From a virus, in IMG/VR virus record IMGVR_UViG_3300030060_006606, positions 1 to 27,694 of that record: 27,694 nucleotides of DNA; one strand, 5' to 3'. Position numbers and translations under genes: made by a program. Numbering within the stretch: the stretch's first letter is position 1; every line of letters begins with the position of its first letter. Of the stretch, positions 9,483 through 21,540 are shown piece by piece. The notes beneath the pieces were generated by a model, which made no database searches, was not told the origin of the DNA, and worked only from the letters and a program-made list of their open reading frames with translations.

Positions 9483-9852
9483 CTAACATTGCTGGAGCAA
9501 ACATCTTTAACATTAAAGCATTAGCTAAACCGATAGCGTGTACTGTATCTTCATCCCCACACTGTGCTGCTAAACCTAACATAATAGTATTGAAGGCTTG
9601 CATAAGAGGTATTGTTAAGTCCCATACAAGATATGCGTCTTTAATATATTTGTATCCATCTTCAGGGTCTAAAGTTGATAGATGTAATAAATGATATAAC
9701 ATAAAGGCGTGTCTATCTGTATCATTAATTAGAGATTCTATTTCATTTTCAAAGGCTTCTTTAACTTGTAAAGAGGTATTATTTTCCATCCAATTAGAGT
9801 GTTCTTCCACCCAATCGTTATACACATCTTCATTATATACCCAAAATGTCAT
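9466..9852 (-). CDS. Hypothetical helical protein (128 aa)
   Basis: Largely alpha-helical, acidic and Trp/Tyr-rich at the N-terminus (MTFWVYNEDVYNDW), with a moderately hydrophobic C-terminal half (MQAFNTIMLGLAAQCG and ALMLKMFAPAML). The hydrophobic part is broken by polar residues, so I do not call a membrane segment. An AAGGAG lies 8 nt before the ATG, and the start overlaps the PC4-like stop as ATGA. Function unknown. Confidence 0.6.
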   Translation of the reverse strand: MTFWVYNEDVYNDWVEEHSNWMENNTSLQVKEAFENEIESLINDTDRHAFMLYHLLHLSTLDPEDGYKYIKDAYLVWDLTIPLMQAFNTIMLGLAAQCGDEDTVHAIGLANALMLKMFAPAMLGDSAE

Positions 9853-10091
9853 TCTTCTTTCTCCTTTATATTTTCCTTATGTTCATTGCCATCTAGTTTT
9901 ACTTTTTGTAAGATTTGACTTAAAATTATTATTTCATCTAGATTTAATCTAGCTCCTTTCTTAGTAGGTTTATTTTTTTCATACATTCTAATATCAACGT
10001 ACTCTGTATTCCAATATTTGCCTTTAACTACTTTCCATTCTTTATTAGCATCTCTAGGAATCCTACCTAATAGCTCATCACCATCATTCAT
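9849..10091 (-). CDS. PC4/Sub1-like transcription coactivator, ssDNA-binding
   Basis: An 80-residue protein whose centre matches the PC4 core. It has a strand with Trp, then YVDIRMYE, a basic turn with KPTKKGARL, and a helix LDEIIILSQILQKV. In PC4/Sub1 this fold dimerises and binds single-stranded or melted DNA, helping polymerase at promoters. The protein is close to the minimal core length and has a basic/acidic C-terminal tail. It starts directly after the upstream stop (TAAATG) with AAGGTG as ribosome site. Together with the viral TFB further upstream, it suggests the virus adjusts the host archaeal transcription machinery. A role in replication as ssDNA binder is possible. Confidence 0.7.
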   Translation of the reverse strand: MNDGDELLGRIPRDANKEWKVVKGKYWNTEYVDIRMYEKNKPTKKGARLNLDEIIILSQILQKVKLDGNEHKENIKEKEE

Positions 10092-10891: not shown

Positions 10892-12466
10892 TTAAAACAT
10901 GCCCTGTGGTTGCATAATCTCATTTTCTTTCTCTCCTACTAATACTTCAGATGTAAGAACTAAGGCAGCGACAGAAGCAGCACTATTAAGTGACGAAATA
11001 GTAACTTTAACTGGGTCAATTATTCCTAATTCATACATATTACCAAGCTCACCAGTCTTAGCATTAATGTGTGGTAGACTTACTTTCTTTTTCTGGTATT
11101 TCTTTTCTGTATAATCAATACCCGCATTGTTTAGTATTTGTTCATAAGGGCTCATTAGACATTCTAACAATGCTGCCTTATAGTGTGTATTTGTTTTATC
11201 AATTGCAGTTAAAGAGTATTCAGCTAGTGCTGTTCCTCCACCAGAAATAACTCCCATTTCCATTGCTGCTCTAGTGGCATTAAGTGCGTCATCTATTCTT
11301 TCCATTTTATCTCTCATTTCTATTTCGGAAGCAGCACCCACATTCAATAGGGCTACTCCTCCTAGTAGTTTAGCTATCCTAGTTCTCATCTTATCTGCAA
11401 CAAATTCATTTTGAGCATCATCAATGTGATTAGAAATCATATTGGCTCTTTCTTTAACTTTCTCTTCTTCTCCTCCACCATTGATTATAACTGTTTTAAG
11501 TTCTCCAACAGTTACTTTTTCGGCTTGTCCTAAGTCTTCTATTTTTACTTCTTCCAATTTAATATTGGTTTGATAATCTAGGAACTTACCCCCAGTAACT
11601 ATTGATATATCCTCAAGAATATTATCTGAAACATAACCATAATCAGGTGACTCAATAGCACAACACTGTACAACACCACCCATTACGTTAACGATTAAGT
11701 TACTAATTGCGTGCTGTTCAAGAGTTCTAGAAATAAGTAGAAGAGGTCTTTTTGTTTCTGCTACTTTTTCTAGTATGGGTATTAGTTCTTGGAAACGTAT
11801 AATGTTAAAGTTAGATATAAGAATAAACGGATTTTCCATAACAGTTTGGTTCTTCTCTTTATCTAAAGCTAGGTGATGACTTCTGTATCCTCTATCAATT
11901 TCTAATCCTTGAACAACCTCAATTGTTGTGTTCATATCTTTAGATTCATTAACAGTAATGACTCCATCTTTACCTACAGTCTCTATTGCTTCTGCAATTA
12001 ACTTACCAATATAATCATCATTATTAGCAGCAATAGTTGCTACATTTTTAATCTCCTCAGAGTTTTCTATTAGGTTAGAATTCTTTAGTAATAATTCTGA
12101 CATATCATGTACTATTTCTTTTAGACTCTCGGCAACCTTTACTGGATTTTCTCCCTCTTTTATTAGTTCCATACCCACTTGACAAAAAGCCTGAGCAAGA
12201 ACACAAGCAGTAGTTGTACCATCACCAGCTAAGTTTTGTGCTTGGGTCGCTACTCCGATAAGTAGTTTAGCTCCCATATCTACAAATTCATCTTCATGGT
12301 GAATGGCTCTAGCTACAGTTACTCCATCATTAACGATTATCGGCTTTGAGTGTTCCTTTAGAACAACTGTTCTAGCCATCGGACCTAACGTTGGTTTAAC
12401 TGCATTAGCGGCTAAATTTATTCCTTCTAACATTTTTTCTCTTGCTTCATTTCCTATTACTATCAT
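10892..12466 (-). CDS. groEL: Group I chaperonin (GroEL/Hsp60 homologue)
   Basis: A 524-residue GroEL-family protein. Visible landmarks are the N-terminal ANAVKPTLGPMARTVVL, the ATPase motif GDGTTT at residues 81-86, DRGYRS in the apical hinge region, and a GGGTAL motif in the C-terminal equatorial domain. The C-terminus lacks the Gly-Gly-Met repeats and ends QPQGMF. It belongs to the bacterial-type group I rather than the archaeal thermosome group. With the GroES-like protein two genes upstream it could form a virus-dedicated folding chamber, for example for virion proteins. The start follows GGAGAGGATATGA directly after the coiled-coil gene. Identification is secure; the client is unknown. 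Confidence 0.95.
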   Translation of the reverse strand: MIVIGNEAREKMLEGINLAANAVKPTLGPMARTVVLKEHSKPIIVNDGVTVARAIHHEDEFVDMGAKLLIGVATQAQNLAGDGTTTACVLAQAFCQVGMELIKEGENPVKVAESLKEIVHDMSELLLKNSNLIENSEEIKNVATIAANNDDYIGKLIAEAIETVGKDGVITVNESKDMNTTIEVVQGLEIDRGYRSHHLALDKEKNQTVMENPFILISNFNIIRFQELIPILEKVAETKRPLLLISRTLEQHAISNLIVNVMGGVVQCCAIESPDYGYVSDNILEDISIVTGGKFLDYQTNIKLEEVKIEDLGQAEKVTVGELKTVIINGGGEEEKVKERANMISNHIDDAQNEFVADKMRTRIAKLLGGVALLNVGAASEIEMRDKMERIDDALNATRAAMEMGVISGGGTALAEYSLTAIDKTNTHYKAALLECLMSPYEQILNNAGIDYTEKKYQKKKVSLPHINAKTGELGNMYELGIIDPVKVTISSLNSAASVAALVLTSEVLVGEKENEIMQPQGMF

Positions 12467-12673
12467 TCATATCCTCTCCACTTTATCTTCTATCTCTTCT
12501 ATTCTGTCTGTTACTTGAGTTAACACTTCTTCCATTTCCATCATTACGTGATGTGGCTCTCCGATATTATCTGTCCAACTAATAGTTTGGAAGGCATCTA
12601 TTGCCTGATATAATCCATCTTGAGCACTACGAAGGTTATTCATTTCTTCTTTCAATTCATCCAATTTACTCAT
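12467..12673 (-). CDS. Small coiled-coil protein between GroES and GroEL
   Basis: A 68-residue acidic, helical protein with heptad-like spacing (LDELKEEMNNLRSAQ at the start and TDRIEEIEDKVERI at the end), so a short coiled coil or prefoldin-like hairpin is likely. It overlaps the GroES-like gene by 4 nt and directly precedes GroEL. Its position suggests a chaperonin accessory, client or adaptor protein, but that is inference from neighbours only. Confidence 0.6.
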   Translation of the reverse strand: MSKLDELKEEMNNLRSAQDGLYQAIDAFQTISWTDNIGEPHHVMMEMEEVLTQVTDRIEEIEDKVERI

Positions 12674-12897
12674 ATAGTCACCTTACACAACACACTTTGA
12701 AAATGAATAACGAAAAACTCACCAATGATTTCTTTCTTATTTGGTTCATAGAAGATGTAATCTCCTATGTTTAGATTCTCTACTTTATTACCAACTGATA
12801 TTACTTCTGCTTTATTATTCTCAGTTAGTACAAAGCTCCCTTCATTCGTCTTTGCTTCTCTACAAACTATTGTTTCTCCATACGCTTCTAATTTCAT
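12670..12897 (-). CDS. groES: GroES-like co-chaperonin, shortened
   Basis: A 75-residue protein, against about 95 for GroES. The sequence follows the GroES beta-barrel order: the strand ETIVCREAK, a mobile-loop region ending GSFVL (usual GGIVL), AEVISVGNKVENLNIGDYIFYEP matching the central GD-V region, and a final strand with a V-L-C-K-V ending. The segment that forms the roof hairpin in GroES is cut down. The hydrophobic FVL tripeptide is retained, so it could still dock on GroEL. GAGGA lies before the ATG, and both ends overlap neighbours by 4 nt. Operon context with the GroEL homologue makes the call strong. Confidence 0.8.
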   Translation of the reverse strand: MKLEAYGETIVCREAKTNEGSFVLTENNKAEVISVGNKVENLNIGDYIFYEPNKKEIIGEFFVIHFQSVLCKVTI

Positions 12898-13373
12898 ATT
12901 AATTCCTCTATTGTTTCTCTTTCATTCTCTAAACTAACTATTTCTTCTGAACTATATTTAACCAACATTGCTTCACCCGGTCTTGCTTTTCTCCATAACT
13001 GGTGTTCGTTATCCCCCAATACAATTGCTGTTAACATAATGGGGCTCCAAGTATTAATTGTGGATATATCTGTTCCACTAAAGTAAGCTTTACCAAACGG
13101 ATGGGTGTGTATCCAACACTTGATAGGTAGCTTCATTTTATTCTCATACAGTTCTTTTTCTTGTCCCATAAACGAGACAAATGATGGACTACCTACACTC
13201 ATAAATAAGTTATTATTAGAATCAATTATGACTTGAACTTCTCTAGGTATATCAAAAGCAGTAAGGCTCTCTGTCCATATTGTCTGTAAGAAATCACTTC
13301 TTTCCTTTCTGAATAAATTTTTCAATTCCTTTCCTTCTCTGAAGGATATTTTTATCTTATCTTTCCAATCCAT
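12894..13373 (-). CDS. JAMM/JAB-domain metalloprotease
   Basis: A 159-residue Mov34/MPN-fold protein with a complete JAMM signature. H89-T-H91-P, then six residues, then S99 and D102 (IHTHPFGKAYFSGTD) supply the zinc ligands. An upstream glutamate (Glu35 or Glu45) could be the catalytic acid. JAMM enzymes cleave isopeptide bonds or C-terminal extensions of ubiquitin-like proteins. It lies two genes downstream of an E1-like adenylyltransferase, and a ubiquitin-like protein with an Asn-Cys extension after Gly-Gly is at 18080-18283, so processing or deconjugation is the natural inference. AGGAGG lies 6 nt before the ATG, which overlaps the upstream stop as TAATG. Phage tail JAB proteins are an alternative lineage. 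Confidence 0.85.
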   Translation of the reverse strand: MDWKDKIKISFREGKELKNLFRKERSDFLQTIWTESLTAFDIPREVQVIIDSNNNLFMSVGSPSFVSFMGQEKELYENKMKLPIKCWIHTHPFGKAYFSGTDISTINTWSPIMLTAIVLGDNEHQLWRKARPGEAMLVKYSSEEIVSLENERETIEELI

Positions 13374-13579
13374 TAAACCCCTCCTAAAGCACTAATCATA
13401 ATATCTTGAGCATTTGTAAATTCATGGTAAGTCTGATGACCAGCAATGAATCCCCCTGCTTCTCTAATAATGCCAGTGAATGATTCTCCACAAGCAGCAC
13501 AAGAAACAGATACTACTTCACAATCGAAGTATGTACCTTCTTTAGTTTCTAATTTATCAATAACATCTCCTACTTTCAA
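13373..13579 (-). CDS. 68-residue C2H2-like zinc protein between E1 and JAMM genes
   Basis: C-x2-C (SCAACGES) followed by H-x3-H (AGHQTYHEF) gives a C2H2-type metal site, with beta-strand flanks. The protein ends ALGGV, which at first suggests a ubiquitin-like Gly-Gly terminus. However, the GGA GGG codons are also the ribosome site of the JAMM gene, so that ending may be incidental. The start is TTG, overlapping the E1-like stop as TTGA. The order E1, this protein, JAMM is overlapping and strictly co-directional, so it may be a partner or substrate of that pair. Confidence 0.6.
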   Translation of the reverse strand: MKVGDVIDKLETKEGTYFDCEVVSVSCAACGESFTGIIREAGGFIAGHQTYHEFTNAQDIMISALGGV

Positions 13580-14139
13580 ATGTTCACAACCTTATAATCA
13601 CAAACGTCGCCATTATTAACGAACCATCTTTGAACCCACTCAGCAGCCATTCCAGCTATAGCAACGTGTGTAAAGTGGATATCTTTTGTATCTCCTTCCC
13701 ATTCAGTTCCTTGGCAGGAAAAACTACCATCTGGTCCAGATAATACAACGTCAAACATATTCTTTGGTGTTTTATAACTAATCAACGCTCCATTCCTACC
13801 TTGTGCTCTCAAATCTAACCATTGAGTTGATGACCTATAAAGAAGTCTACGAACATCTAAGTTATCAGCACAGCATATAACTAAATCATATCCTTTTATT
13901 TGTCCTTCAGTTAATACTAAGAAAGGGTCTGCTTTTTTAATAGAACTATATCTACTTCGCATACATTCTACTTTCTTATTCTCAATTTCACTCCTATCGA
14001 AGTTCTGATATGTTATGTTCTTCTTTTCTACAATATCAGGGTCATTAACTGTAATGTTGTATAGTCCAGTCTTATCTAAAAGAGGGATAAGATAACTACC
14101 TATTCCTCCAGTTCCAATAATTAGTATTTTTCTTTTCAT
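13576..14139 (-). CDS. E1/ThiF/MoeB-like adenylyltransferase
   Basis: A 187-residue Rossmann-type protein with the nucleotide loop GTGGIGS (residues 9-15). It has an acidic strand end VNDPD, an N-x-x-x-Q-N element, a conserved-type NKK, and ICCADN followed by R, matching the family's D-N-x-x-x-R region. ThiF/E1 enzymes adenylate the C-terminal glycine of ubiquitin-like or sulfur-carrier proteins. At 187 residues it is minimal and lacks separate catalytic-cysteine and ubiquitin-fold domains. Cys142 and Cys180 are candidates for a thioester. The usual R-Q motif reads Q-N-F here, so activity needs testing. It is in the same operon as the JAMM protease, which supports a modification system. Confidence 0.85.
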   Translation of the reverse strand: MKRKILIIGTGGIGSYLIPLLDKTGLYNITVNDPDIVEKKNITYQNFDRSEIENKKVECMRSRYSSIKKADPFLVLTEGQIKGYDLVICCADNLDVRRLLYRSSTQWLDLRAQGRNGALISYKTPKNMFDVVLSGPDGSFSCQGTEWEGDTKDIHFTHVAIAGMAAEWVQRWFVNNGDVCDYKVVNI

Positions 14140-14492
14140 TTTTCTCTCTCCAAATAATCTTGTAACGTTAATACGTCTTCTCTTATTTCCTTTATATCGA
14201 ATTCAAATGCTGAATTAGATTCACTTTCTTCCACCACTAAAGGTATAAATGGTGTTTCTTTTATTTCACTCACTAATCTTTCTATGAGTTTTATCCTTGC
14301 TGAATCGAACTTATTCTTTGGTCCTTCTTTCCAACCATTATACCAGAAATCATCAACAACATATCCTCTTAGATAAACAAGCAGATTAGTTTTAATTGCC
14401 TTATCTGCTTCTTTAATTGATGAAGGGGGTTTCTCTTCATCCAATTGTTCTATCAAGGAGTTTATTTCTTCTGTTAATTCCTCACTCATCAT
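14136..14492 (-). CDS. Hypothetical acidic protein (118 aa)
   Basis: A helical, strongly acidic protein. A Glu-rich N-terminal helix is followed by an aromatic patch (YLRGYVVDDFWYNGW) and further helices. No family is recognised. It overlaps the E1-like gene by 4 nt, so co-expression is very likely. A partner of the E1-like protein is possible but nothing in the sequence proves it. Confidence 0.6.
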   Translation of the reverse strand: MMSEELTEEINSLIEQLDEEKPPSSIKEADKAIKTNLLVYLRGYVVDDFWYNGWKEGPKNKFDSARIKLIERLVSEIKETPFIPLVVEESESNSAFEFDIKEIREDVLTLQDYLEREK

Positions 14493-14730
14493 TAGACTTC
14501 ACCTTAAAGTCAGGATGGTTTTGAGGGATTCTATGTGTTCTCCTATCTACTATATTACGAATTAATTGGGCCGAAGAAGTTACTCCTGCATTGAATCTCT
14601 TCTCAGCAGCGGGGTCATTAGGAGGAACCATATTGGCTTTCACTCTTTCAATTACCATTCCTATTTCTTTCGACTGTAATATATTCTTCAATATTTCATA
14701 TTCTACGTGTATAACTGTTTTCGCTCTCAT
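14482..14730 (-). CDS. Hypothetical protein (82 aa)
   Basis: An N-terminal strand (AKTVIHVEYEILKNIL) is followed by helices and an Arg/His-rich stretch (RNIVDRRTHRIPQNHP) near the C-terminus. No family is recognised. It overlaps the TFB gene stop by 4 nt (ATGA) and the next gene by 11 nt, so it is translated from the TFB operon. Confidence 0.6.
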   Translation of the reverse strand: MRAKTVIHVEYEILKNILQSKEIGMVIERVKANMVPPNDPAAEKRFNAGVTSSAQLIRNIVDRRTHRIPQNHPDFKVKSNDE

Positions 14731-15572
14731 CTTATTCCCTCTATTATATCATTCACTGTTAAATTAAATGTGTTCTCTATTTCTAATATTGATAATATTC
14801 TGCGATAATTATTCTTCACAGAAGTCAAACCAACACCAAATATTTCTGCTATTTCTTTCTGGTAAGTAGTTACCATTGGTTTAGTTGTTTCAACAAAATA
14901 AACTATCCCTGATAGATAGGCTGAGTTAGGCTGCTTAGGTTCTATCTTATCTAAGTAATAATATATGTTAATACAATCATTAATGTAAGCTCTATCTTTA
15001 TTTAACTTAAGACAGAACTTTTCAAACAAAGAAGAAACATTCGTATTAGCAAATATGTAAGATTTATTTAATTTCCTTGCATATAATTTTGCTAATTTAC
15101 TCAGCCTTTTAGGTGATATTTCTAATATAGCTGACGTTTCTTTTAGTGTGTATTCTTTCCCATACTCTTTCAAAATAATATAACCTAAAGCAGCAGCTCT
15201 TTCTTCTAGAGTCATTTTATTTGTATAGACTCCACTCTTTCTCAGCATAGAATCATACATTAGAATATCTCTTTTTGCTGAATCAGAGAGTTGAAATTCA
15301 CTAAGTACTACATTCATATGTAGTTCTCTTCTCTTTATTGTTCTCTGTTCTTTAGATAAACTATACATAACTGCTAACCTTCTCAATCTAGATGCCGTTT
15401 TAGTTTTACTTCTACCTATGTGGCTACCTAATTCTATATCTTTATGGCGAACTATTTCGTTATTCTCAAATATAGGAGCATCCATTATATTTCCTATAAT
15501 TAGCCCGCATTTCTGACAGGACCATTCTCCTTCTGTATCTACGATATCGCCTTTACATTCGCCACATTTCAT
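14727..15572 (-). CDS. tfb: Transcription initiation factor TFB (TFIIB homologue)
   Basis: A 281-residue protein with an N-terminal zinc ribbon (Cys3, Cys6, Cys19, Cys22). A linker follows with a G-S-x-I-G element and a basic R-L-R-R-L segment at the position of the B-reader, then two helical cyclin-like repeats. The second repeat ends in a helix-turn-helix-like TTYQKEIAEIFGVGLTSVKNNYRRIL. TFB recruits archaeal RNA polymerase to TBP-bound promoters and contacts the BRE. A virus-encoded copy could redirect the host polymerase to viral promoters such as the palindromic elements at 22.4-26.1 kb. A GGGGTGA ribosome site precedes ATG 15572. It is upstream of the E1, JAMM and chaperonin genes in the same direction. 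Confidence 0.88.
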   Translation of the reverse strand: MKCGECKGDIVDTEGEWSCQKCGLIIGNIMDAPIFENNEIVRHKDIELGSHIGRSKTKTASRLRRLAVMYSLSKEQRTIKRRELHMNVVLSEFQLSDSAKRDILMYDSMLRKSGVYTNKMTLEERAAALGYIILKEYGKEYTLKETSAILEISPKRLSKLAKLYARKLNKSYIFANTNVSSLFEKFCLKLNKDRAYINDCINIYYYLDKIEPKQPNSAYLSGIVYFVETTKPMVTTYQKEIAEIFGVGLTSVKNNYRRILSILEIENTFNLTVNDIIEGIR

Positions 15573-15605
15573 TTTGTCACCCCTTGGGATGACCGTTTCT
15601 TTTCT

Positions 15606-16850
15606 CTATTCCGACTGGAACAGCGAAATTCTTTGGTCAGTTTGTCCCAAACTATGTCCACTATTTAATCTTCCTTGAATAGTAGATACTCTTTTGACTA
15701 GCAGGTCGTCGTTTAACAACCCTAATGCTCTAGTTACAAATTGGTCGCCAGTTGGGGATTTATTGTCTAAATTATCCACACAAATAGGCCCATTCCATTT
15801 GCCCTGTTCTCCTTCATTATGTTCCCAAACATAAGTTGAAACATTTTGCTGCCCTTGAGATTTTAAACCTCTATCAGTTAGTTTCCAGTCTGCTAATTTA
15901 CCATGAATATACATGATGGTAGGTTTCTCTGAAACATCTAGTAGTCTATCAGGGCTGCCCCAATTAATTTTGATTCTGTCAGGATAACGAGATTGAATGT
16001 GAATCATCAAATCTCTTGCTCTTTCTTTAACAACTTTAGAAGTTCTATTCTGATGTAAGAAAGAAATCATTAGTTGTTCTTCAGCTTCTGTTGGTAATCT
16101 TTTCATTACTCTTTCCCAAAGAGCCGAAGGACTTAGGTTACTCCAATTGCCCCTTTTCTTTTTATTGAGATAGCTATTCATGTAAACGTTTAACTGTTTA
16201 ATTCCTATTTCTCCCCAAACTCCATCGGAGATTTCAATTGCCACCTTAGTATCACTAATAAGATTAACCTTTAATCTACATTCTATTCTCTTAGTTATAT
16301 ATCCATCTTCACTTTCTAGATAGAAATAATATGGTGCTCTATTCTCTAAAGCATAATGAACGTTCTCTGGTAGATGAATATGCTTTATTAGGAATTTATC
16401 TAACTCTGAGCCATCATCTGTAAAACACGACTTGTAAATCGTTCTGGCTAAGGCTGCAATAAGTACTGACTTATTACCCATCATTCCATTTATGTAATAA
16501 CGAGTTCCTACTTTATTGAATAAAACAACATATCCTTCATCACCAATAGTTATTGAGTGTGAGAATTCAGGAGCTTTGGGTTCTTCTACTACCTTTATTT
16601 TTTCACTTTCAGGCGTAAAGAAACCACGGCTTTCTCTTTTTTTCCAAGTTTGTCCGTAAATCTGTCTTCTGGATATTTTTAACTTATTAGTTAACCAATT
16701 CTTGATAGACTCTATCATAGGATTATTAGCTGTGCGATGATAATGTGCAGAGATAGTCTCTGTTCTATATGTCTTTTCATCACTAAATAATACTAATGTT
16801 GAATCGTATTCTCCTGAATCGTCTGGTCTTTTAATTAATAATTCTGGTAT
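15606..16850 (-). CDS. Hypothetical protein (about 414 aa), start unclear
   Basis: No family is recognised. It is a long soluble protein with a basic N-terminal helical segment, a beta-rich middle (residues about 100-220 of the long form) and a helical region with WERVMKRLPTEAEEQL. The first ATG is at 16718, without a ribosome site. The same frame continues open for 44 more plausible codons to 16850. There an AGGTGAT ribosome site and a GTGA stop/start overlap occur in the neighbouring frame. Either an unusual ATA start is used or one base is missing between GTG 16858 and the frame. It is the largest unknown protein in the window, so it is possibly a key virus-specific enzyme or structural factor. 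Confidence 0.6.
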   Translation of the reverse strand: MPELLIKRPDDSGEYDSTLVLFSDEKTYRTETISAHYHRTANNPMIESIKNWLTNKLKISRRQIYGQTWKKRESRGFFTPESEKIKVVEEPKAPEFSHSITIGDEGYVVLFNKVGTRYYINGMMGNKSVLIAALARTIYKSCFTDDGSELDKFLIKHIHLPENVHYALENRAPYYFYLESEDGYITKRIECRLKVNLISDTKVAIEISDGVWGEIGIKQLNVYMNSYLNKKKRGNWSNLSPSALWERVMKRLPTEAEEQLMISFLHQNRTSKVVKERARDLMIHIQSRYPDRIKINWGSPDRLLDVSEKPTIMYIHGKLADWKLTDRGLKSQGQQNVSTYVWEHNEGEQGKWNGPICVDNLDNKSPTGDQFVTRALGLLNDDLLVKRVSTIQGRLNSGHSLGQTDQRISLFQSE

Positions 16851-16854
16851 GTTA

Positions 16855-17007
16855 TCACCTCAATCTACTCCTATATCTCTCTAGACAAGAAGAGTGTATC
16901 TCTTGTCTTATGTCATTTGGGTGGGTTAGTTGCCCACCACATATTCTACATTTTGTTGCTATGTTCCCTTTAGGCCCACTGATGTAATCTGGATTCCTTT
17001 CTTTCAT
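16855..17007 (-). CDS. 50-residue zinc-finger micro-protein
   Basis: It contains KCRICGG followed by a histidine about 6 residues later, another histidine and a final cysteine (IHSSC), giving a treble-clef-like C-x2-C...H...C site. An AAGTGAT lies before the ATG. The 3' end carries the AGGTGAT ribosome site of the next gene, and the 5' end overlaps the gene at 16970-17173 by 38 nt. No family is assigned. Confidence 0.5.
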   Translation of the reverse strand: MKERNPDYISGPKGNIATKCRICGGQLTHPNDIRQEIHSSCLERYRSRLR

Positions 17008-17173
17008 TTTTATCACTTACTCTTTGTTTAGAGATAAGAAGATGCGGGTGCTTATCTAGCAATGCATCTATATTCTCTAATAATAAACTTTGGGACTCAA
17101 ACTCTTCCATCCAAACACTACCGTTCGCTTTACAGATACTTATTCTGTAGCGATATTGTGTTTGGTTTTCCAA
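16970..17173 (-). CDS. Hypothetical protein (67 aa)
   Basis: A small protein with a beta-hairpin-like N-terminus (YRYRISICKANGSVWMEEF), a helix (SLLLENIDALLDKH) and a basic C-terminal tail. No family is recognised. The start is TTG at 17173, preceded by GAGAGGG; it lies inside the 3' end of the upstream gene. Both neighbouring overlaps exceed 30 nt, so either this frame or its edges may be mis-set. Confidence 0.45.
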   Translation of the reverse strand: MENQTQYRYRISICKANGSVWMEEFESQSLLLENIDALLDKHPHLLISKQRVSDKNERKESRLHQWA

Positions 17174-17448
17174 TCTTTATCCCTCTCTATATATTCCATT
17201 AAATCGAGATATTCATCTCTCTTCTGCTTCAACCAATCCACTACTTCATAAGAACGCACAATTTTGTTCTTTATCAAGACTTGCCTTATTTCTTTATTAC
17301 AAAGTAATTCTTTGGTTTCTGGTAATAAATCGAGTTCTTGTAATTTGTCTATGTATTCTATTACTCTATGGTATGAATGAACTGGTATTAAATCACTTAA
17401 TATGTCAACCATACACTCTCTTAATTCCTTTAAATCTTTAAATATCAT
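17140..17448 (-). CDS. Hypothetical helical protein (102 aa)
   Basis: An all-helical protein rich in Leu, Glu and Lys, with helices around LKELRECMVDIL, HRVIEYIDKLQEL and VVDWLKQKRDEYLDLMEYI. No metal site or membrane segment is visible and no family is recognised. It begins at the stop of the winged-helix gene (one-base overlap, TAATG), so it is expressed from the same mRNA as that regulator. Confidence 0.55.
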   Translation of the reverse strand: MIFKDLKELRECMVDILSDLIPVHSYHRVIEYIDKLQELDLLPETKELLCNKEIRQVLIKNKIVRSYEVVDWLKQKRDEYLDLMEYIERDKDWKTKHNIATE

Positions 17449-17879
17449 TATATTCCCTTTATCTCTTTATGTATGAAGTCCCAGTTATCTCTTTTTACCA
17501 TTGTGGATAAACTGTTTATTTCATTAGTAGTTGTATCTATTACGTGTCTATATCGATACAATGCTGCTCCTCTTCTTGGTTCTGTATCTTCACTCCCATA
17601 TTTTCTTATTAAGTTACTATAGTTTATACTCCATTTACAGATAGTATAACTGTGGTCTAGACTATTAGAAGTTAATCGAAAAGCCTTGTGTTTCCCTGAC
17701 TTATCGAAAATTCCAGTCTTTGATAGTATATTTCCTAACTCTTGAGAAGTTACTCCCAATTTACCTGAAAATAAATCAATTATTTGGTGGGTTGACATCT
17801 CGCCTTCCCTATTCAAAGCTAATACTATTTTCTCTATTTTCCTACACTTTCTTCCTGTAAAAAACAATAACCTATGCAT
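17448..17879 (-). CDS. Winged helix-turn-helix protein (143 aa)
   Basis: After a short basic N-terminus, residues about 12-62 form a winged-helix pattern: KIEKIVLALNREG, then STHQIIDLFSGKLG and VTSQELGNILSKTG, then a strand with FRLT. The rest is Tyr/Arg-rich and unrecognised. It is probably a DNA-binding regulator. AAGGAG lies 8 nt before ATG 17879. Upstream is a 200-bp gap with structured element C, so this gene heads a transcription unit that includes the next genes to the left. Confidence 0.55.
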   Translation of the reverse strand: MHRLLFFTGRKCRKIEKIVLALNREGEMSTHQIIDLFSGKLGVTSQELGNILSKTGIFDKSGKHKAFRLTSNSLDHSYTICKWSINYSNLIRKYGSEDTEPRRGAALYRYRHVIDTTTNEINSLSTMVKRDNWDFIHKEIKGI

Positions 17880-17907
17880 CTTAATTTCTCCTTTTTGGTA
17901 ATCTTTT

Positions 17908-17978
17908 CTACATTTTTTTATCTATATGAAGTCTAGCCTAAATGTTACTGGTAAGGCTATTTTCATTGAAAAATGTAG
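17908..17978 (-). promoter_or_regulatory. Structured leader element C, upstream of the wHTH gene
   Basis: This lies in the 200-nt gap 17880-18079, which has no gene. CTACATTTTT (17908-17917) is the exact inverse complement of AAAAATGTAG (17969-17978), a 10-bp closing stem. Inside it TAGCCT (17934-17939) pairs with AGGCTA (17954-17959). As in elements A and B, the 3' strand in transcript sense is followed within a few bases by the AAGGAG site of the downstream gene. The rest of the gap (17979-18079) holds an AT-rich TATA-like run and a weak GAGG/CCTC hairpin. Confidence 0.45.
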
Positions 17979-18079
17979 TGTTTATATTTTGTTCCTAATT
18001 AATGTTAGAAACCTAGTGTGTGGGAAGAGGGATTACCTCCTTTATCTCTTATTACTTGGTAAACCACAATGTATCTTAT

Positions 18080-18283
18080 CTAGCAGTTTCCGCCAACAAT
18101 AGCGGGAACTAAATCTACATCTGATACGTCATCCCAGTTAACTGCTGAGATGTCAGTTCGGTTAATCATTTCACCATCAACGAAAACCCAATGGGTTGCG
18201 TGTTCGTTTATATGGTCCATTATTTCGCTCACTGCTACTGACATTTCTGTGTGTCCTGTTTCATTCAATATTCTTAGTTTCAT
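18080..18283 (-). CDS. Beta-grasp ubiquitin-like / sulfur-carrier protein ending GGNC
   Basis: A 67-residue protein with the strand-helix-strand order of the beta-grasp fold. Two N-terminal strands (KLRILNETG and EMSVAVSE) are followed by a helix (IMDHINEHA), the strand WVFVDGEMI and a final strand VDLVPAIVGG. The last part resembles ThiS/MoaD and phage tail-assembly ubiquitin-like proteins (D-x-D-x-x-x-P-x-x-x-GG). Two residues, Asn-Cys, follow the Gly64-Gly65 pair, so a protease would have to expose the glycine before adenylation. That fits the JAMM protease and E1-like enzyme encoded at 12.9-14.1 kb. The GG codons do not overlap any downstream ribosome site. The start overlaps the coiled-coil gene as ATGA. 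The fold is assigned by eye. Confidence 0.6.
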   Translation of the reverse strand: MKLRILNETGHTEMSVAVSEIMDHINEHATHWVFVDGEMINRTDISAVNWDDVSDVDLVPAIVGGNC

Positions 18284-18546: not shown

Positions 18547-18672
18547 TTATTTTCCTCCTTTAATTTCTTTTGCTACTAGTGAGTCTATGCAGTCAAAACA
18601 TACTCTATACTCTGTGCATCTCATTCTCATAGGAGCATTATAAAAATCAATCTTACATAATTGACATTTCAT
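18547..18672 (-). CDS. 41-residue zinc-ribbon micro-protein
   Basis: C-x2-C at residues 3-6 (KCQLCK) and C-x2-C at 25-28 (VCFDCID), plus Cys19, match a compact zinc ribbon. The ATG overlaps the stop of the large upstream gene as ATGA, and its stop abuts the coiled-coil gene. Its general form is like the 38-residue protein at 367-483. Confidence 0.55.
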   Translation of the reverse strand: MKCQLCKIDFYNAPMRMRCTEYRVCFDCIDSLVAKEIKGGK

Positions 18673-19919
18673 TTATTTCCCTCTAATAACTCACCAATCA
18701 TATCGCTGGCTTTCTTCTTTGTCAAGTATTGATTGGGTGTGCCACCTAACTTTCTGATATAAGCTAATTGCTTTTCAGTTGCTGACTCATCTAATCTACT
18801 AATTATCTTTACAGTTCTATTTCTTTGTTTAGGTGATATTGACTGTAATGAATTAATCCTTCTAATCATATCTCTTAAGAAAGATACTTCCCAATCATTT
18901 CTACCGCTTTCTTCTGTAAAGTGACTTATTTCGTTCTCGGTACAAAACCGTTCTAAAGCACTATCCATTAGTCTCTGTCGTTCACGCTCCCTCTCGGTCC
19001 TTTCTACTTCTCTGATGCGTAACCTTTCTGCTCTTTCTTCTCTTTCAATTCTCCTTTCTTCAGCAATCCTAGCTCTCTTTTCATTAATTTCTACTATTCT
19101 TGCTTCTCTTGTTAATTTCTTTTGGTTGAAAGTTTCCTTATGTGTTTCTAGGTTAAAGTAGAATATCATTAAGTCGTTCCACAATCTATCGTTTGGATAT
19201 CCCGTAGTATTAATTTGTGCTTTATTATTATCTGGATGATTCCATCTCCAAACAATTGAAGCCATTTTGTAAGATGGTGTACCGTATTTACCTTCTGATT
19301 TTTTACGTAGTAGTAGTTGGTTTTCCATCCATTCGGTGTCGGTATCCCAATATGGTTTGCCCTTTCTGGTATTCATAATTAAATCAAGTTCTTTAATTTC
19401 ATCAAACCATTCTTTGAATTGCTCTCCATTATTCTTCCACCACCATTCTGCTTTCATTGACTTAACGGCTTCTTTAATCCATTCTTTGACTCTTTCTTGA
19501 GTTACCATATCTTCTGGAATGTTTAGATTTTCAACCATGTGTCGAACAATCATCCAAAAACCAATGTGTTCGCTACCAACGATTTCTAGTCTACCATTTT
19601 CGGTATTCTCTATCTCAAAATGCCAAGCTATTTGATGTCCACAAATACATTCGTGTGGATGAGCGTTATTATGTGGCTCTGGTAATACATCGTTTATTGT
19701 ATGATTCAAAGGTATATACCAAACGTTACCTGTTGCTTTCCATTCTTTTCTTGCTTCTGTCCAATCATCTGCTACCGATAATTCGGTTAGATTATTTTTC
19801 AGTGCAACGTTATATGCTCCACTTGGATTATGCCATTTACCTCCAACAGCATCTGAAATAATATCTCCTGTGGCTATAAATTCTCTATCATTCATCCTTA
19901 CGTGTCTTGCTCTATTCAT
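18669..19919 (-). CDS. Large hypothetical protein with Arg/Glu coiled coil and KQLAYIRKLGG tail
   Basis: A 416-residue protein. The N-terminal half is Trp-rich with a HECICGHQIAWH cluster that could bind zinc or iron. Residues about 275-325 form a long Arg/Glu helix. The C-terminus has ATEKQLAYIRKLGGTPNQYLTKKKASDMIGELL, a module like the small KQ-x-x-YI-x-x-LGG domain found at the ends of many phage and nuclease-like proteins. A nucleic-acid-related role is plausible, but no catalytic motif is visible. AGGAG lies 8 nt before ATG 19919, which overlaps the preceding stop region by 8 nt. Confidence 0.6.
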   Translation of the reverse strand: MNRARHVRMNDREFIATGDIISDAVGGKWHNPSGAYNVALKNNLTELSVADDWTEARKEWKATGNVWYIPLNHTINDVLPEPHNNAHPHECICGHQIAWHFEIENTENGRLEIVGSEHIGFWMIVRHMVENLNIPEDMVTQERVKEWIKEAVKSMKAEWWWKNNGEQFKEWFDEIKELDLIMNTRKGKPYWDTDTEWMENQLLLRKKSEGKYGTPSYKMASIVWRWNHPDNNKAQINTTGYPNDRLWNDLMIFYFNLETHKETFNQKKLTREARIVEINEKRARIAEERRIEREERAERLRIREVERTERERERQRLMDSALERFCTENEISHFTEESGRNDWEVSFLRDMIRRINSLQSISPKQRNRTVKIISRLDESATEKQLAYIRKLGGTPNQYLTKKKASDMIGELLEGNK

Positions 19920-20598: not shown

Positions 20599-20838
20599 TT
20601 AACCGAATAATGCTGTATTCGATTCTTCTCCATGTCCGTTATATTTGCCACTCATTACTCTGTGTAAATTACCGGACGCTGTTGGATAGATTGTTTTTAC
20701 ACAATCCATTATTGCTCCTGCTGATAGTAGGACTGCTTCCCACTCATCATCTTTAATTGCCTCAAGCATATTACTTGCTAAGTTCTTAATTACGTCGTTC
20801 AGTTCTGTTTCTATTCTTGTAAAGTATTTGTCATTCAT
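20599..20838 (-). CDS. Hypothetical protein (79 aa)
   Basis: A helical N-terminal two thirds (RIETELNDVIKNLASNMLEAI and WEAVLLSAGAIMDCVKTIY) is followed by a Gly/Asn-rich tail. No family is recognised. It overlaps the next gene upstream by 8 nt. Its 3' end lies 13 nt before the tRNA. Confidence 0.55.
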   Translation of the reverse strand: MNDKYFTRIETELNDVIKNLASNMLEAIKDDEWEAVLLSAGAIMDCVKTIYPTASGNLHRVMSGKYNGHGEESNTALFG

Positions 20839-21385
20839 TTTTTATTCCTCTTATTCTTTTATTCTCACTCTCTAAGAAATTATACCATTCCTTAGTTTTC
20901 TTCTTTATGTGGTCTTTTGGCCACCAATTGGGTGCTCCAAACTTCCAACTTGCTATTCTCCATTTATCTTCTAAATAATATGTTCGGTAAGCAAGGACCG
21001 CATCATCATTTTTGTATTCATCTGGCATCGCTTGAGCAAACTCTGTAAGTCCTTTATTACTCAATAGTGCAGATACTTCTTCAATATCATATTTAAATTC
21101 ATTAAGAAGCAATTCTACTTTATGAACTCTATGATATCTATTAGTATATTCTTTACATAGACCGATTGTATGGTCTACTAACCAATTAAAATTCTTTCCT
21201 GATTCTCTAGCCCATATTGTGCAAGGATGGTTCGCCATAACAGATTTGAATGGGGAGTTGAATCCATTCATTTCCATTATGGTCGAAACCATCTGTAAGC
21301 TTTCTGTAGGCATTTTCACAACATGTTTGTCCATCATCATTTCTGCTGCTGAAAAAGGATTATCATCTAATACAAATATATTCAC
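20831..21385 (-). CDS. Phage-type conserved protein with DKHVVKM and HPCTIWARES motifs
   Basis: A 184-residue protein starting MNIFVLDDNPFSAA, with DKHVVKMPTESLQM (residues about 20-33), HPCTIWARESGKNFNWL, GLTEFAQAMPDEYK and AYRTYYLEDK. I know this set of motifs from proteins common in tailed phages, often adjacent to nucleotide or DNA metabolism genes. I cannot name the activity with confidence. GTG 21385 is used because GAGG lies 7 nt upstream and the GTG overlaps the upstream stop as GTGA. A TTG 12 codons earlier is less likely. It suggests gene exchange between archaeal and bacterial viruses. Confidence 0.65.
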   Translation of the reverse strand: MNIFVLDDNPFSAAEMMMDKHVVKMPTESLQMVSTIMEMNGFNSPFKSVMANHPCTIWARESGKNFNWLVDHTIGLCKEYTNRYHRVHKVELLLNEFKYDIEEVSALLSNKGLTEFAQAMPDEYKNDDAVLAYRTYYLEDKWRIASWKFGAPNWWPKDHIKKKTKEWYNFLESENKRIRGIKNE

Positions 21386-21540
21386 TCTTCTTCCTCTTTT
21401 ATTATTCTTTTTGGAACCCAATAAGCATTAGGTCCATACCATCTTGGGTCAGCTAATACTGCCTCTGGATGTTCTCTATATTTCTTACTTTTAGGCCACG
21501 CTATTACTATTTTAGGTTCTTCATATTTTCTTTTTCCCAT
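21382..21540 (-). CDS. Hypothetical basic protein (52 aa)
   Basis: A basic, Trp/Tyr/Pro-rich small protein (IVIAWPKSKKYREHPEAV, then DPRWYGPNAYWVPKRI) ending in five glutamates after a KRIIK stretch. No family is recognised. It overlaps the DUF1599-like gene by 34 nt at its start and the next gene as GTGA at its end. Its last codons contain the ribosome site of that next gene. Confidence 0.5.
   Translation of the reverse strand: MGKRKYEEPKIVIAWPKSKKYREHPEAVLADPRWYGPNAYWVPKRIIKEEEE

Follow-up and report, generated by a model that had tools for sequence, protein, structure and literature searches.

Conjugation of ubiquitin-like (Ubl) proteins by an E1 and a JAMM protease without an E2 has precedents in the SAMP/UbaA/HvJAMM1 system of Haloferax volcanii (PMC4443979) and the TtuB/TtuC/JAMM system of Thermus thermophilus (PMC3980101). 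In the former, an archaeal beta-grasp modifier ending in Gly-Gly is served by one E1-like enzyme, and the deconjugase HvJAMM1 cuts exactly after the glycine; the system is cellular, and UbaA also takes part in sulfur transfer. In the latter, a small ThiS-like Ubl is conjugated to lysines by a single E1 with no known E2, a JAMM protein affects the conjugates, and TtuB is also a sulfur donor for tRNA, through TtuA. Sporadic bacterial E1-E2-JAB-Ubl operons, CBASS Cap2/Cap3 and Bil also co-encode an E1 with a JAB/JAMM protein outside metabolic pathways, but these include an E2, which in Cap2 is part of a fusion, and work on behalf of the host (PMC1779556, PMC10097602). E1-Ubl-JAMM sets have been described in cells and in the antiviral defence of bacteria. 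On the viral side, Bacteroides phage crAss001 carries adjacent genes annotated as metalloprotease and ThiF, and a ThiF gene is among the most prevalent auxiliary genes of archaeal viruses (PMC8276007). We found no earlier report of the full three-gene set in archaeal viruses in the papers searched.

Here we analyze such a set in IMG/VR record IMGVR_UViG_3300030060_006606, of which positions 1 to 27,694 form the window. The observation of the first-pass annotation, which had named an E1-like protein (13576-14139), a JAMM protease (12894-13373) and a 67-residue beta-grasp-like protein (18080-18283) on one strand, is confirmed; all three lie on the minus strand, as does every other feature located below. 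Its suggestion that they could form an activation and removal cycle in an archaeal virus gains support from the predicted fold, the conserved Gly-Gly and the co-occurrence of the genes, the three points on which it could have been refuted. With no recognised E2, a separate Gly-Gly Ubl and a viral genome, the set stands apart from the E1-E2-JAB, CBASS and Bil systems, and we consider it fairly probable that the virus has its own, self-contained cycle of reversible ubiquitin-like protein modification, one that runs without an E2.

The window covers part of the genome of a magrovirus-like, tailed virus of marine archaea. Magrovirales/Aoguangviridae have genomes of ~90-100 kb with cpn60/GroES, TFB, RFC-S, PCNA, ligase, PolB and TerL genes (PMC10768690), and the window together with an 87 kb relative, G001, matches this gene set, the assignment being one of gene content in which some genes are named by resemblance. 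Relatives of the three genes occur on hundreds of IMG/VR contigs. Cellular relatives of the Ubl were considered and rejected, the only candidates being three contigs in one Altibacter MAG, evidently viral contigs binned there.

The 187-aa E1-like protein is a minimal Rossmann domain of the ThiF/MoeB superfamily. It exceeds the Pfam ThiF cutoff (PF00899; E=7.7e-18, 64.9 bits against 28.1), and its profile matches PDB structures of UBA5, MccB, Cap2, Uba4, UBA3, MoeB and ThiF. The GxGGxG nucleotide loop, the catalytic Asp of CxDN and the SCQ cysteine (Cys142) are each present in 146/146 distinct homologues. The arginine of NxxRQ is replaced by Tyr (NxxYQ) in 143 of the 146, with NxxRQ found in none, and a conserved Lys precedes the Asn of this motif. 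The enzyme is truncated, beginning at the Rossmann loop and lacking the N-terminal region, which in MoeB-type enzymes contributes an Arg to the active site of the partner. Its scores fall below the NCBIfam equivalog cutoffs for ThiF (50.4 against 275), MoeB (32.4 against 377) and SAMP-activating UbaA (29.4 against 450 bits), the last being a point of difference from the Haloferax system. Among annotated phages, its best matches are the ThiF proteins of crAss-like phages (~28-32% identity over half its length), whose gene pair differs in encoding larger proteins and in having a bacterial host.

The single-domain JAMM/MPN+ metalloprotease, predicted to process the Ubl and to deconjugate it, had been credited with a full HxHP-x6-S-x2-D motif, which we find intact together with the upstream Glu. 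Of 153 distinct homologues, 150 carry the set E...HxHPx6[S/T]x2D; the remaining three stop short of its end. Taken alone, the window protein matches Prok-JAB weakly (PF14464; E=2e-4, 21.7 bits against a cutoff of 25), and the family profile matches structures of AMSH-LP, AMSH, Sst2 and Rpn11 (best E=2.2e-4, AMSH-LP). The viral enzyme is predicted to cleave after the second glycine of its Ubl.

The Ubl open reading frame is a real gene, as its low dN/dS (~0.04-0.06 against three relatives, indicating purifying selection), its strong Shine-Dalgarno sequence (AAAGGAGG) and its 106 distinct homologues establish. The beta-grasp fold, set beforehand as a test, is predicted with moderate confidence: in both AlphaFold2 models, whose mean pLDDT is 75 and 70, the elements follow one another as in a beta-grasp and the Gly-Gly tail is disordered, and the deeper alignment used for one of them did not raise confidence (70 against 75). 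The nearest solved structures belong to the ubiquitin family. For the first model, the best 50 PDB matches found by Foldseek are all ubiquitin, NEDD8, SUMO or UBL domains, and for the second, the top TM scores among the matches listed are those of the small chains of 5ztb (0.63 and 0.60) and of H. pylori MoaD (0.56), although no match of either model to the PDB reached E<0.001. The 5ztb entry, a TtuA-TtuB structure, is titled 'Structure of Sulfurtransferase'.

The proximity of the second model to 5ztb and MoaD bears on the main rival explanation, namely that the Ubl is a sulfur carrier. After adenylation by the viral E1, its Gly-Gly would be converted to a thiocarboxylate by a cysteine desulfurase or rhodanese of the host. 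A host enzyme would then draw on this sulfur in a way that benefits the virus, such as tRNA 2-thiolation, and the JAMM would tune side-conjugation. Such a role would accord with the dual function of TtuB, Urm1 and SAMP2, which serve both jobs (PMC3980101), and host enzymes could provide the missing sulfur-transfer steps. Aligned by hhalign to individual ThiS and MoaD sequences of E. coli, the Ubl profile also falls into register at the C-terminal Gly-Gly (P = 0.004 and 0.012), but with low hhalign probabilities (8% and 3.5%). Furthermore, rhodanese (PF00581), TtuA/TilS-type ATP_bind_3 (PF01171) and PAPS_reduct (PF01507) domains are absent from 27 large related viral genomes in searches that gave matches in 13-14 of 14 control genomes, the lack of a TtuA-like gene being a point of difference from the Thermus system, and the JAMM is kept in every flanked locus, those with a cap-less Ubl included. 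We therefore regard a sulfur carrier as improbable. Of the uses proposed in the first-pass annotation, namely host-protein modification, sulfur transfer or virion assembly, reversible protein modification is favoured, sulfur transfer is less so, and tail assembly is unlikely.

Sequence comparison of the Ubl yields less than its predicted fold. The window protein alone has no meaningful match in Pfam, PHROGs or NCBIfam, a tblastn search of annotated phages returned noise only, and the Ubl profile finds nothing significant among PDB sequences. Pfam ThiS (PF02597) is reached weakly, below its cutoff, by 8 of 77 Ubl members (best E 0.0014) and not by the window protein, whereas a phage PinA inhibitor model matches 19 of the 77 (best E 1.4e-4), although this model gave no match when ten members were scanned singly. 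As ThiS matches fewer members than the PinA model, sequence alone leaves the homology of the Ubl unproven. This weak similarity to known Ubls, the better score of the PinA model in some members and the position of the gene 4 kb from the E1, outside its operon, would agree with a small protein of beta-grasp or similar fold on which this E1 does not act, the genes being merely ancestral neighbours. The C-terminus is hard to explain on those terms, and we hold this explanation to be highly improbable.

The Ubl ends PAIVGG-Asn-Cys, with Gly64-Gly65 encoded at 18089-18094, a two-residue cap, Asn66-Cys67, at 18083-18088 and the stop codon at 18080-18082. All 106 distinct homologues have the Gly-Gly without exception, with variable residues on both sides of it; divergent relatives ending EEVVGGY or EQVQGGC keep it with the preceding residues changed. 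The cap is variable in sequence and measures 0-2 residues in 105 of the 106 and 4 in one. SAMPs, by comparison, are synthesised without cap residues. Cap-less Ubls occur in 16 viral genomes, the trait having changed at least five times across the E1 tree. Because all 16 of these genomes keep the JAMM, the protease probably does more than trim precursors and has a role beyond maturation, as expected of a deconjugase.

In the modification cycle that we favour, a small acidic Ubl (net charge ~ -9) would be made with 0-2 residues past its Gly-Gly, and the cap, where present, would be trimmed by the JAMM. The exposed glycine, predicted to be Gly65, could then be adenylated by the E1-like enzyme using ATP, and the Ubl handed straight on to lysines in viral or host proteins, perhaps via Cys142 of the E1 and with no dedicated E2, much as SAMPs are by UbaA and TtuB is by TtuC. 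The JAMM would later take the tag off again. The Ubl itself has 0-1 lysines in 99/106 (93%) of the distinct sequences, and this near absence of lysine argues against chains and for a single tag.

The first-pass annotation saw no E2 or E3, and none is recognised here. The search for E2 domains (UBC, UQ_con PF00179) gave no match, but neither did its control, and no E2-like Pfam match was found among the neighbour genes scanned. One universal neighbour, p370, has a single invariant Cys, but as a hidden E2 it has no supporting relative in Pfam, PHROGs or the PDB.

The co-occurrence of the three genes holds in related genomes. Among loci with 7.5 kb or more of flanking sequence on each side of the central gene, 46/46 JAMM-centred and 42/42 E1-centred ones hold all three genes, and the full set is present in 33 of 35 whole JAMM-bearing records, the exceptions being explained by contig ends; the E1 occurs in 26 of 27 large related records. 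In one set of loci compared, all three genes lie on one strand, and in another their order is Ubl - E1 - JAMM. As all loci belong to one virus lineage, this co-occurrence partly reflects common descent. That the set is kept in essentially every relative makes it probable that the virus tags proteins reversibly. The broader proposal, that a capped Ubl, an E1 and a deconjugase form a core, virus-owned cycle of covalent, reversible, single tags without E2 or E3 across the whole of this abundant lineage of marine archaeal viruses, is plausible but more tentative.

The same distribution speaks to a counter-defence explanation, in which the JAMM strips host SAMP-like tags off viral proteins while the viral E1 and Ubl compete with the host E1 or serve as decoys. 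Borg elements, which are extrachromosomal and archaeal, carry many AMSH-like JAMM enzymes that are proposed to be deSAMPylases removing host tags, and are not known to have a complete E1-Ubl set; in bacteria, Ubl conjugation is directed against phages (PMC12660748 and the studies it cites). Counter-defence genes are, however, normally patchy and fast-evolving, whereas all three genes are near-universal here, and decoys would need no strict conservation of the Gly-Gly and of the ATP-site residues of the E1. Indeed, the E1 and Ubl belong to the slow-evolving genes of the lineage, with 59% and 58% identity between remote members against 40% for cpn60 and 29% for PCNA. Counter-defence thus seems unlikely.

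Gene context bears on a further alternative, a virion or tail assembly module like lambda gpI/gpK. Lambdoid and T1-like phages pair a Ub-like TAPI, with a C-terminal Gly, with a JAB-NlpC TAPK (Iyer et al. 2006, PMC1779556), but that JAB domain forms one protein with NlpC/P60, its gene neighbours tail genes, and the description lists no E1. In the present set a single-domain JAMM adjoins GroES/cpn60, an E1 is always present, and the genes sit in a replication-side cluster with TFB, cpn60, ligase, RFC and PCNA; in G001, the terminase side is on the other strand. A lambda-type tail function is rejected by this context, and a virion or tail role of any kind is scarcely to be expected.

Within the gene string of the E1 and JAMM, a TFB-like factor (14727-15572; N-terminal zinc-ribbon pattern and analogy with PMC10768690 Fig. 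1), p82 (14482-14730) and p118 (14136-14492) lie upstream, and the genes from TFB to E1 overlap by 4-11 bp. A GroES-like co-chaperonin (12670-12897), named by resemblance and magrovirus gene content (PMC10768690) with no Pfam match, overlaps the JAMM gene by 4 bp, and a cpn60 chaperonin (10892-12466; Pfam Cpn60_TCP1, E=3.1e-45) ends the string. Given this co-encoding, the E1 and JAMM would be expected to be expressed with replication and proteostasis genes and not with virion genes.

If the proposed cycle is correct, finding the complete set near-universally at the core of one archaeal virus lineage would reverse the roles known from defence, and the prevalent ThiF gene of archaeal viruses (PMC8276007) would acquire a concrete function. 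Three proteins without an E2 would also make a very small conjugation system for study, in which the choice of targets by prokaryotic Ubl conjugation lacking E2 and E3 becomes testable with few parts.

Between the E1 and JAMM genes lies a 68-aa C2H2-like zinc-finger protein (13373-13579), which has no Pfam match and occurs in a minority of related loci, roughly a third. It was considered as a second Gly-Gly modifier and ruled out, its Gly-Gly not being conserved. Its CxxC...Hx3H pattern is invariant in 8 aligned homologues, which share the position of the second Cys.

The E1-like enzyme of the ThiF/MoeB superfamily (13576-14139), the JAMM metalloprotease (12894-13373) and the 67-residue ubiquitin-like carrier (Ubl; 18080-18283) that the first-pass annotation grouped together are correctly placed, all on the minus strand, and they recur as a set in related viruses. 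Profile searches of viral contigs recovered 219 Ubl, 279 E1 and 311 JAMM loci. When the best 80 E1 and the best 80 JAMM loci were taken and at least 7.5 kb was required on both sides, all three genes were present in 42 of 42 E1-centred and 46 of 46 JAMM-centred loci, bearing out the proposed co-occurrence, with the qualification that these sets overlap within one virus lineage and are not independent trials. E1 and JAMM share a strand in 155 of 155 pairs. Searches of whole records found Ubl in 30 of 32 and 33 of 35 records and E1 in 26 of 27, and in the exceptions the expected place of the missing gene lies at or past the contig end. Shared descent alone probably does not fully explain this co-occurrence, because accessory neighbours (the zinc finger, p82, p118 and, in the related genome G030, cpn60) are gained or lost while Ubl, E1 and JAMM persist. 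Between remote members of the group, E1 and Ubl are 58-59% identical where PCNA is 29% and cpn60 40% identical; Ubl dN/dS is about 0.04-0.06.

The E1 scores far above the Pfam cutoff for the ThiF superfamily. UBA5, MccB, Cap2, Uba4, UBA3, MoeB, ThiF and two recent THIF-type proteins are among the solved structures closest to it in sequence. It is, as initially described, a minimal Rossmann domain, without rhodanese. All 146 distinct homologues keep the catalytic Asp, the nucleotide loop and a cysteine (Cys142, in SCQ), and the arginine of the usual NxxRQ is replaced, giving NxxYQ in 143. The JAMM motif, E...HxHP-x6-S/T-x2-D, is complete, being intact in 150 of 153 homologues, and the family profile matches AMSH-like proteases.

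Both AF2 models of the Ubl adopt the suggested beta-grasp at only moderate confidence, with ubiquitin, NEDD8 and SUMO as nearest structures; for the model from a deeper alignment, these are, among the hits listed, a small chain of 5ztb, a TtuA-TtuB structure (TM 0.63), and MoaD (0.56). As the models are moderately confident and none of the PDB matches reaches E<0.001, support for the predicted fold is good but short of proof. Of 77 Ubl homologues, 19 match Pfam's model for PinA, a peptidase inhibitor of phage (best E 1.4e-4), a better score than with ThiS.

Both glycines of the terminal Gly-Gly are invariant in 106/106 distinct Ubl sequences, even where the preceding PAIV becomes EEVV, QEAV or EQVQ. 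The cap that follows has no residue in 10 sequences, one in 32, two in 63 and four in 1, and varies in kind, with Tyr, Leu or Cys commonest at the end. This pattern would be expected if only the Gly-Gly end matters and the remainder is a removable cap. Mapped on an E1 tree of 120 genomes, the 16 genomes with a cap-less Ubl require at least five changes of this trait, and since all 16 retain JAMM, the protease appears to be kept for more than cap trimming; the obvious second job would be removing Ubl from proteins. The Ubl carries a net charge near -9 and no more than one lysine (0-1) in 99 of 106 sequences, which speaks for single tags over chains.

By analogy, the set probably serves reversible protein modification. 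It resembles SAMP/UbaA/HvJAMM1 and TtuB/TtuC/JAMM, two systems that work without an E2; HvJAMM1 cuts exactly after the C-terminal Gly (PMC4443979), and TtuC-dependent TtuB conjugates on lysines are altered in a JAMM mutant (PMC3980101). No E2 was recognised in the viral set, which is not a firm absence given a silent UQ_con control. Because SAMP and TtuB modifiers double as sulfur-transfer proteins, sulfur carrying by Ubl and E1 is the main rival, and host sulfur enzymes could act in place of viral ones; CysH is reported from some magrovirus genomes (PMC10160649). Searches of 27 large relatives found no rhodanese, TtuA/TilS-type or PAPS-reductase-type families (controls positive in 13-14 of 14 genomes), and we regard sulfur carrying as rather unlikely.

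TFB (14727-15572), p82 (14482-14730), p118 (14136-14492), E1, zinc finger, JAMM, GroES (12670-12897), a coiled coil and cpn60 (10892-12466) follow one another with 1-11 bp overlaps or no gap, a layout that reads as an operon. The Ubl lies in a separate string 4 kb upstream on the same strand, as first noted, preceded by an overlapping coiled-coil gene and a strong Shine-Dalgarno; a carrier expressed separately from, and more strongly than, its enzymes would suit a modifier role. In almost every related locus the gene for p370 (370 aa; 15606-16718, minus strand) sits next to Ubl and E1. The protein has one invariant Cys (C313) and QNR and GDQ motifs, and no relative in Pfam or PDB; this unassigned core gene of magroviruses could encode a partner. 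Almost all relatives also encode, immediately before the string that holds the Ubl on its upstream side, a conserved protein of 416 residues (18669-19919, minus strand), which shows a CxCGH...HF motif and matched no Pfam family. The C2H2-like zinc-finger protein between E1 and JAMM (68 aa; 13373-13579, minus strand) occurs in about a third of loci; it ends in ALGGV, close relatives in MGGA, and remote relatives have no conserved GG.

The 27.7-kb window, an IMG/VR virus record, encodes cpn60, named by Pfam, and DNA ligase, RFC small subunit, PCNA, GroES-like and TFB-like proteins, identified from their resemblance and position. G001, at 87.4 kb the nearest of its long relatives, additionally encodes PolB, nucleases of the ERCC4/XPF and PD-(D/E)XK types and the large subunit of a terminase. 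Magroviruses (Magrovirales) have genomes of 90-100 kb with GroEL/GroES, TFB, RFC-S, PCNA and PolB (PMC10768690), and the combined gene set is that described for them, the lineage being assigned by gene content alone. Also present are a pyrimidine dimer DNA glycosylase (20831-21421, minus strand; PF03013, E=1.4e-7) that related genomes have also conserved, and a PC4-like transcription coactivator domain (9849-10091, minus strand; PF02229, E=5e-5, slightly below cutoff). In G001, a 384-residue protein (L038:1410-2564) carries a T5orf172 domain together with repeats of the DUF4379 treble-clef zinc finger.

RaFAH placed MoeB/ThiF, linked to ubiquitination, among the most prevalent auxiliary genes of archaeal viruses (PMC8276007), and tail assembly in lambda-like phages involves a Ubl domain paired with JAB (PMC1779556). 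In crAss-like phages metalloprotease and ThiF genes are adjacent, a possible bacterial-virus counterpart; in Bacteroides phage crAss001, Gp77 is annotated as metalloprotease and neighbouring Gp76 as ThiF. None of the papers searched brings magrovirus and ubiquitin together, and those examined on magroviruses or archaeal viruses make no reference to ThiF, JAB or ubiquitin. The enzyme families are known, and the chemistry is probably of a known kind too; what appears to be new is the complete, virus-owned, lineage-wide form. Three contigs of the GTDB genome 'Altibacter sp. EAC109' (NZTP01000030, NZTP01000027 and NZTP01000016) carry the viral Ubl, one also with E1 and JAMM, evidently as viral contamination of a bacterial MAG.
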